Source of the DNA: Actinomycetota bacterium
Lineage (GTDB): Bacteria; Actinomycetota; Actinomycetes; Actinomycetales; Microbacteriaceae
Assembly: GCA_020161315.1 (NCBI GenBank)
Contig: JAIUOH010000034.1
Span: forward strand, 1-32,779
DNA: 32,779 nt
Direction of reading: 5' to 3'
Part shown: piece by piece, positions 10,309 through 11,233 of the stretch
Numbering within the stretch: position 1 is the stretch's first letter
How the letters are laid out: every line of letters starts with the position of its first letter
Notes under the pieces: generated by a model
What the model saw: the letters and a program-made list of their open reading frames with translations, nothing else
Told to the model about the DNA's origin: nothing
Database searches by the model: none
Made by a program: the position numbers and the translations under genes

Positions 10309-10339
10309 TGCAGCCAGCACAAACTGCATGCTGGCTGCA
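10309..10339 (-). terminator. Stem-loop after the micropeptide gene
   Basis: Perfect 11-bp arms TGCAGCCAGCA (10309-10319) and TGCTGGCTGCA (10329-10339) with a 9-nt loop. It starts 28 nt after the micropeptide stop codon and lies between two minus-strand units. There is no T-tract, which is common for actinobacterial stem-loop terminators. Confidence 0.6.
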
Positions 10340-10367: not shown

Positions 10368-10508
10368 TTATGCGCAGCAGCTGCCGCCACAGCAGCTTGC
10401 GCCTGACTCGGCGTCGCCAAGCAGGTTCAGAATTTCGGCGGTCTCTGCAGATGCGGCTGCAGCGATACCGGCCTCGTTGTTCAGCTGGGGTGCGGTGGTC
10501 TCGCTCAT
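10368..10508 (-). CDS. 46-residue peptide with C-terminal CCGGSCC cluster
   Basis: Small gene missed by length cut-offs. The start ATG at 10508 has GGAG 6 nt upstream (caaccc between), a clean Shine-Dalgarno site, and the frame ends in TAA at 10368. The peptide is acidic and Ala-rich, with a likely amphipathic helix (about 15-31, ending LNLLGD), then a Gly/Ser-rich tail holding all four cysteines in SCCGGSCCA (38-46). There is no signal peptide. It starts 48 bp after the DsbA/FrnE stop on the same strand and is followed by a hairpin, so it is probably the last gene of a two-gene unit. Vicinal cysteine pairs suggest metal or metalloid binding, a thiol substrate of the DsbA partner, or a RiPP-like precursor; no modifying enzyme is adjacent. 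Function unknown. Confidence 0.8.
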   Translation of the reverse strand: MSETTAPQLNNEAGIAAAASAETAEILNLLGDAESGASCCGGSCCA

Positions 10509-10555
10509 GGGTTGCTCCTCGTTGGTGATAATTTTTGTAAGTTGAAAGGCGCTGG

Positions 10556-11233
10556 CTACTCGGGCTCTTCGCCGCTGATGCTGAATGAGAGCACTTGCTC
10601 GAGCACGTTCGCGAAGACATCGGCCGACTGAGCGCCCGAAACCGCGTACTTCTCTTCGAACAGGAAGTACGGCACGCCAGTCACGCCGAGCATACGCGCC
10701 CGCGTAATGTCGCGCTCAACCGCGTCTTCAAACTCTTCATCGTCAAACGCGTCGCGCACCTCGTCTGCGTCGAGGCCCACCTCTTCACCGAGCTCGGCCA
10801 GGGTCGTGGCGTCTGAGACCAGTCGCCCCTCACTGAAGTAGGCGCGGAACAGGCGATCCTGCATCTCTGCCTGCAAACCCTGCGACTTCGCGAGGTGCAA
10901 TACCCGGTGCGCACGACTCGTATTTGCGTGCTGCAGCTTTGCAAAGTCAAACTCGATGCCCTCGAGCGCCGCCATCTGCGTCATCTGCTCGAGCATGTCT
11001 TCGACGCGCTCACGCGGCATGCCCTTGTGCTTGGTCAAGAAATCGATCTCACTGCCCGAATAGTTGTCGGGAGTGTCTGGCGCGAGCTCGTAGCTGTGGC
11101 TCTCGACCTCAATCTCGATCTCAGGGTGCGTACGAGTGAACTCGGCAACACCCGCCTCAAATCGGCGCTTTCCGATGTAGCACCACGGGCAGGCGATGTC
11201 GCTCCAAATATCAACGCGAAGTGTGTCAGTCAT
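10556..11233 (-). CDS. DsbA family oxidoreductase, FrnE-like
   Basis: Thioredoxin-fold protein of 225 residues with the active site CPWC at 15-18 (SDIACPWCYIGKRRF), the helical insertion typical of DsbA/HCCA relatives, and cis-Pro in VTGVPYF near residue 188. There is no signal peptide, so it is cytoplasmic, as in the FrnE group. In Deinococcus, FrnE is a thiol-disulfide isomerase linked to oxidative and cadmium tolerance. The next gene downstream encodes a peptide with two CC pairs, which is a plausible thiol partner. TACGCT lies 9 nt before the ATG and there is no strong Shine-Dalgarno sequence. Confidence 0.93.
   Translation of the reverse strand: MTDTLRVDIWSDIACPWCYIGKRRFEAGVAEFTRTHPEIEIEVESHSYELAPDTPDNYSGSEIDFLTKHKGMPRERVEDMLEQMTQMAALEGIEFDFAKLQHANTSRAHRVLHLAKSQGLQAEMQDRLFRAYFSEGRLVSDATTLAELGEEVGLDADEVRDAFDDEEFEDAVERDITRARMLGVTGVPYFLFEEKYAVSGAQSADVFANVLEQVLSFSISGEEPE

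Follow-up and report, generated by a model that had tools for sequence, protein, structure and literature searches.

A cysteine-tailed micropeptide encoded behind frnE in Microbacteriaceae as a probable detached redox tail

FrnE and its C-terminal tails

Swinging cysteine tails are a known device of redox enzymes: ribonucleotide reductase R1 (CX4C), mercuric reductase (CC) and mammalian thioredoxin reductase each use a mobile C-terminal dithiol for recharging or feeding an active site, often that of the other subunit. The likeness to the present case is one of working principle, and their tails are fused to the enzyme, unlike the detached FrnE tail proposed here. The closest described system is of the same enzyme family as the protein under study, namely FrnE of Deinococcus radiodurans (DR_0659, PDB 5cnw, 5co3 and 5xwh) and SCO1869 of S. 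coelicolor (PDB 3gl5). According to a review of Deinococcus thiol reductases (PMC8945050), through which the primary paper on the tail (Bihani 2018) is cited, the C-terminal CXXXXC motif of the Deinococcus enzyme acts between molecules, reaching the active site of another molecule in crystals (Cys244–Cys22), and has been proposed to regenerate the enzyme; mutation or loss of the tail cysteines lowers the TrxR-coupled reduction of DTNB, and insulin reduction with DTT does not need them. For homologs without CXXXXC, the same source suggests a different regeneration mechanism, with none named in its section 2.4 (PMC8945050).

Given this tail and the tail-less homologs, the ends of FrnE were read across the class. 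Among the 59 complete frames obtained elsewhere in the class, from 60 hand-picked loci, 18 end in CX4C, 6 carry other Cys tails and 35 have none. The fused set excludes the locus L276, owing to the position of its Cys in the preceding helix; it is nonetheless counted among the 25 fused-tail ("cis") loci of the HMM tally described below and is marked "none" on the tree, as is L258, which runs off its contig and is absent from that tally. The actinobacterial fused tails consist of a hydrophobic anchor, a flexible linker and a terminal CX4C. For one FrnE with a fused tail (A4, first row L254), AlphaFold gives a mean pLDDT of 94.7 but values of 63, 79 and 64 in the last three blocks, and the model therefore says little on docking.

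The frnE gene and the micropeptide of the window

The window, that is, the whole stretch of 32,779 nucleotides that was analyzed, contains on its minus strand an frnE-like gene (positions 10556..11233) for a DsbA-family thiol oxidoreductase of 225 residues. This identity, put forward in the first-pass annotation from the sequence letters, is borne out by matches to Pfam DSBA (1e-43) and, by phmmer, to the two nearest solved relatives, D. radiodurans FrnE (2.8e-51, spanning residues 10–219 of 260) and SCO1869 (5e-41), which also take the top ranks in Foldseek. The translated active site CPWC (residues 15–18; codons at 11180..11191, minus strand) has both cysteines and the proline invariant across 60 FrnE rows, so that the protein has the fold and CP(W/F)C motif of the FrnE subfamily of DsbA. 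The same-chain C-terminal CXXXXC present in many, not all, members is absent from the window enzyme, which ends SISGEEPE and, because its match to the Deinococcus chain ends at residue 219 of 260, is without the C-terminal extension.

The small frame that had been described behind the CPWC gene is present on the same strand (10368..10508), with a Shine–Dalgarno-like GAGGAG (10515..10520, minus strand) upstream of its ATG and with similar sites in relatives; the adjacency is as claimed, but the spacing given as 48 bp is measured as 47 bases after the frnE stop codon. Its translation of 46 residues, which we propose to be a detached FrnE redox tail in a CCGGSCC variant, ends ASCCGGSCCA and has all four cysteines within the last eight residues, as had been stated. 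The CCGGSCC tail (residues 39–45; 10374..10394, minus strand) can be read as two overlapping CX4C pairs, C39–C44 and C40–C45, and is preceded by a hydrophobic anchor, ILNLLG (residues 26–31; 10416..10433, minus strand). In a 23-row alignment C39, C40, G41, G42, C44 and C45 are invariant, as is N28 of the anchor, and I26, L29, L30 and G31 are nearly so; an exception outside this alignment, L038, ends CCGGSCH, with His in place of the last Cys. The perfect 11-bp hairpin that had been said to close the gene (10309..10339, minus strand) is a possible transcript end, and the 73-base stretch holding it is predicted to fold at −29.2 kcal/mol (z −2.95), but the lack of a U-tract makes it an atypical terminator at most. 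In some Leucobacter relatives a hairpin can be seen by eye at the same place, accompanied by a T-run in L044 and L050 but not in L051.

The peptide is matched at E <= 0.1 in 53 of the 54 genomes of the genus Leucobacter, where the start, the ribosome site and the core AESxEILNLLGDxExGGSCCGGSCC recur, and in 38 of 39 distinct Leucobacter-type loci it is preceded, at a distance of 13–165 bases, by frnE on the same strand (the exception being L045; in L080 no peptide was called under the locus-scan rule). One Leucobacter genome (L057) has an interrupted frnE frame ahead of the peptide, through sequencing error or real loss. Across the equally spaced cores, 27 of the 32, the peptide has a pN/pS of 0.33; both AGC and TCC serve as codons for the serine that separates the two cysteine pairs. 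Judged by its conservation, its linkage to frnE and these substitution patterns, the 46-codon frame is a real gene under coding constraint; both the conserved peptide behind frnE-like genes and the coding selection on which the first-pass annotation had staked its proposal are found. No match for the window peptide was obtained in Pfam or NCBIfam (E <= 10) or in the PDB, nor in Pfam and NCBIfam for any of six such peptides (that of the window and five relatives).

The usual order among at least eight named Leucobacter loci, with variations, is metG, tatD-like, ksgA-like, ispE-like, frnE and peptide, with an ABC-F gene further on; the names of the neighbors, given in part by similarity to the window, are provisional. 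Unlike this order, no ispE was seen near frnE of the window, and a lipase-like gene on the other strand lies between frnE and the ksgA-like gene, the frnE and peptide genes still being adjacent. Peptides of the CCGG type also follow frnE in the genera g47, g63, g78 and g19; in one g78 genome the context differs, with an isoprenyl-transferase-like gene before and a dus-like gene after the peptide.

Separate tail frames behind tail-less FrnE

In the sampled family, which we take to be Microbacteriaceae from the known placement of Leucobacter, none of 98 frnE loci encodes a fused Cys tail. A detached tail follows frnE in 76 of them (67 found by HMM and 9 as the CCGG form), and 22 have no linked tail; 60 of the family loci were picked by hand and, since the loci were largely chosen for spread, the fractions apply to the sample. 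Unlinked tails are undercounted, because the tail labels depend on frames near frnE. The first-pass annotation had proposed to look for a conserved CCxxxCC tail across Microbacteriaceae; the CCGG form is present in 9 of 98 loci, and the form found in 67 of 98 is plain, with two cysteines only (by eye), e.g., MSGLVPLGDPDAVVCEGDVCEIPAAE (L149) and PFTLIGDPAAEACGPDGCAIP (L122). These plain tails have the layout of the fused ones, i.e., hydrophobic anchor, linker and CX4C at or near the C-terminus, as is seen when PFTLIGDPAAEACGPDGCAIP is placed beside the fused tail PLRLIDQGQQAQACGPDGCAV (L254); two detached tails even contain the CGPDGCA of a fused tail. We propose as a detached tail a small same-strand frame just downstream of a tail-less frnE, built of anchor, linker and CX4C, and the window peptide shows both the position and the build (ILNLLG; C39–C44 and C40–C45). 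The idea that the loss of the fused tail was offset only by CCGG peptides, the tail being regained in five genera, was abandoned in view of the family-wide plain CX4C frames.

The iterated HMM found 74 loci, comprising the 67 of the family and 7 of 69 outside it; 37 of these 69 have neither the fused nor the detached form. The matches score 15.8–52.5 bits, whereas the controls, reverse strands and shuffled DNA, reach no more than 6.8; this final HMM had been rebuilt from its own matches. The first HMM, from 32 pattern-found frames, gave 76 matches above a control maximum of 7.8, and the pattern alone was found in 40 of 98 forward windows and in 1 of 98 reverse-strand windows. One of the 74 loci, L189, has CX5C, not CX4C. 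Several detached tails (L145, L159, L164, L165, L167, L171, L176 and L177) continue after CX4C in a similar extension, e.g., ...HHEQAVVNRRLDEDLV.

A start codon (ATG, GTG or TTG) at −4, overlapping the frnE stop codon by 4 bases, is present in 66 of the 74 HMM loci and also in the CCGG loci L104, L107, L108 and L172; such an ATGA, GTGA or TTGA overlap is typical of translational coupling, as far as the sequence arrangement indicates. Since the tail, overlapping by 4 bases, is read in the −1 frame, a −1 ribosomal frameshift could in principle join it to FrnE and yield an ordinary fused enzyme at the overlapping loci, a reading made very improbable by the start codons at the overlap in those 66 loci, by the gaps of +1 to +9 after frnE in L109, L156, L176 and L217, and by four Leucobacter loci in which the peptide starts 28, 47, 49 and 78 bases past the stop codon, in differing frames and with its own ribosome site.

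The window anchor ILNLLG corresponds to the LTLLG-, LQLLG- and LRLID-type anchors of detached and fused tails, and the LNLLG of the CCGG peptides in particular can be set against the LTLLG and LQLLG of the plain tails. Of the 24 fused tails 14, and of the 17 CCGG tails 15, contain an anchor pattern that was composed after the sequences had been viewed; the shuffle means are 4% and 21%, respectively. When the fused tails were compared by hhalign with 17 CCGG peptides, hand-picked for spread, the score was reached by at most 1 of 100 column-permuted controls in 11 of 12 settings and by 11 of 100 in the remaining one (24 rows, untrimmed, localpair). All 24 Cys tails entered this run; earlier runs with 19 of the 24, from which 5 were omitted and in which the starts were hand-trimmed, gave a score that none of 60 shuffled and none of 300 column-permuted controls reached. 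When the stray L276 was kept, making 25 rows, the score was reached by 122 of 300 controls, and 8 of 300 did so when these 25 rows were compared with the eight frnE-linked non-Leucobacter peptides. Against the plain-tail HMM the window peptide scores −0.4 bits, and when each sequence is set against 50 shuffles of itself, all 50 are beaten in 9 of 39 cases for the Leucobacter peptides, in 1 of 14 for the other CCGG peptides and in 10 of 24 for the fused tails. With the 32-row HMM, the 95% level of the decoys is exceeded by 3 of the 17 CCGG peptides and by 9 of the 24 fused tails. Because the match to the plain-tail HMM is weak, the homology of the CCGG form rests mainly on position, phylogeny and layout. 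This layout also bears on whether FrnE might use the peptide as a substrate or as a small, free redox carrier and not as a resolving tail, as a separate acidic protein linked to frnE could be, FrnE acting on disulfides generally. We regard this as quite unlikely, as the arrangement of anchor, linker and CX4C resembles the enzyme's own fused tails, and no locus with both tails was seen in a light check of clustered-Cys frames behind 48 class loci.

In the FrnE tree (102 of 111 rows, the 9 divergent FrnE of family f10, L284–L292, being left out), all 30 detached and 11 CCGG rows fall on one side, of 49 rows, of a 100/99 branch, and, with the root drawn at the midpoint, L226 and L228, both fused-tail rows, lie next to this side. 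The CCGG form is nested in the detached-tail group with four changes, all forced by well-supported branches, which would most simply be four gains, a count on the tree that allows losses. One of them concerns L111 (GGCCGGGSCSL), sister to L106 (100/93) and next to L109 (EGICSGDSCAF), both with a detached CX4C; from this placement, the change in L111 would be accounted for by a single cysteine added before the canonical pair. The frnE genes with a detached tail in families f38, f45 and f27 (L217–L221, L223 and L225) are placed on the tree within those of Microbacteriaceae, a position suggesting that the pair has passed from one family to another. One g63 genome (G129) has two frnE-like genes (L107 and L188) with about 0.7 kb between them; because a tail peptide follows only one of them, one peptide might serve two enzymes.

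The nesting of the CCGG form is relevant to the possibility that the CCGGSCC peptide buffers or chaperones soft metals or metalloids and has only the operon in common with frnE, FrnE countering the same stress (cadmium, oxidants). Metal-related CC tails are known in SlyD and ArsM, and the metal-binding tail of SlyD is likewise CCGG-rich; unlike SlyD, there is no metal domain here, and most same-place family frames carry two cysteines. In favor of a metal role are the four clustered cysteines, the His that replaces the last of them in L038, similar CC tails away from frnE, and a protein of G538 (L206, frame ending at 1581) with the look of a heavy-metal-associated domain, presumed to be a metal carrier, ending GGCCGGGCCR. 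The D. radiodurans frnE is, moreover, upregulated by cadmium, as stated in PMC8945050. However, 67 of 98 family loci have the plain form with two cysteines (by eye), among which the CCGG form is nested, and no metal-resistance gene was recognized by eye in eight neighborhoods of 8–12 kb; we therefore hold this explanation to be unlikely. Inspection by eye of 8–12 kb neighborhoods in eight relatives likewise revealed no recognizable modifying enzyme or exporter such as a RiPP precursor would call for, a role suggested in the first-pass annotation and prompted by the leader-like helical part and the Cys-rich end. With plain CX4C relatives making up 67 of the 76 detached family frames, a precursor role is barely conceivable and finds no support here. 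FrnE is not known as a RiPP enzyme.

Proposed role of the micropeptide and CCGG peptides away from frnE

We consider it probable that FrnE is split here and that the micropeptide is its C-terminal redox tail, produced as a protein in its own right, in most loci by coupled translation, and acting in trans. This reading draws on conservation, coding constraint, linkage to frnE, absence of fused tails, shared layout and phylogenetic nesting, each established by sequence comparison, and it narrows the thiol partner of FrnE that had been suggested at the outset to a detached equivalent of the enzyme's C-terminal CX4C tail. In the predicted cycle, FrnE would reduce or isomerize disulfides, leaving oxidized CPWC behind. 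In fused FrnE, the flexible, anchor-bearing extension would then bring the CX4C dithiol to CPWC and take over the disulfide, with regeneration of the enzyme. In the Microbacteriaceae FrnE lineage, the tail may have become a small gene of its own, usually with an ATGA or GTGA overlap that would allow termination–reinitiation, and coupled translation would make the peptide together with FrnE. In Leucobacter, the tail gene would have moved downstream of the stop codon with its own ribosome site, the CX4C changing to CCGGSCC. The detached peptide presumably docks on FrnE via the hydrophobic anchor and performs the same disulfide exchange in trans, after which the oxidized tail may be reduced by the thioredoxin or mycothiol systems. 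Compared with the fused FrnE tail, therefore, the proposed tail differs in being a separate gene product, its CX4C being doubled to CCGGSCC in Leucobacter.

A more far-reaching version is that split FrnE is family-wide and that the CCGG ends of four lineages, with four or three cysteines, bind soft metals or form alternative disulfides, so that the tail would be diffusible, gated by metal or oxidant and perhaps shared with other partners; we regard this version as possible, on the improbable side. Returning to the peptide as a detached FrnE tail, a separate, co-translated tail would be a concrete candidate answer, for a whole actinobacterial family, to how tail-less FrnE is regenerated. If true, it would be a clear example in nature of a catalytic swinging arm transferred to a micro-gene of its own while related lineages still have the fused form, and micropeptides without a Pfam or NCBIfam match would gain a function. 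No report of a separate FrnE tail was found in literature searched by title, in which few subscription papers were covered, and searches for CCGGSCC and for a disulfide oxidoreductase combined with a microprotein and translational coupling found nothing. The enzyme and its fused tail are already known; the proposed tail would be the same module, split off into its own gene.

CCGG peptides without an adjacent frnE were found in the genera g51, g85 and g94. The 17 genomes with such unlinked peptides gave 16 FrnE-like matches, all tail-less and without a linked tail, nine of them divergent (24–33% identity). The unlinked peptides would fit a diffusible tail and could also mean another role. Wide HMM searches gave matches in 24 of 297 genomes in the order and 6 of 296 in the class, with CC-type peptides in one further family (f10, g94); the other new matches of these searches had no CC-type end or were weak. 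Four own-genome matches to TGCTGCGGCGGC have ends that are not of the CCGG-tail type. In f10 (g94; L197–L211), a conserved peptide of about 35 residues, MAEKxNIDLID...GGCCGGSCGCGN, lies near a PepO-like metallopeptidase gene, not frnE, in the loci examined. The FrnE of g85 (L158, L216 and L277–L281) is without a fused or linked tail, and five g85 genomes encode elsewhere a peptide of the form KNL(L/I)V...SCCGGGCC (L192–L195 and L203). In two g51 loci (L087 and L089), a CCGGSCC peptide stands right after an ispE-like gene, with no frnE between; since an ispE-like gene precedes frnE in most of the at least eight named Leucobacter loci, frnE may have been lost from here while the peptide remained.
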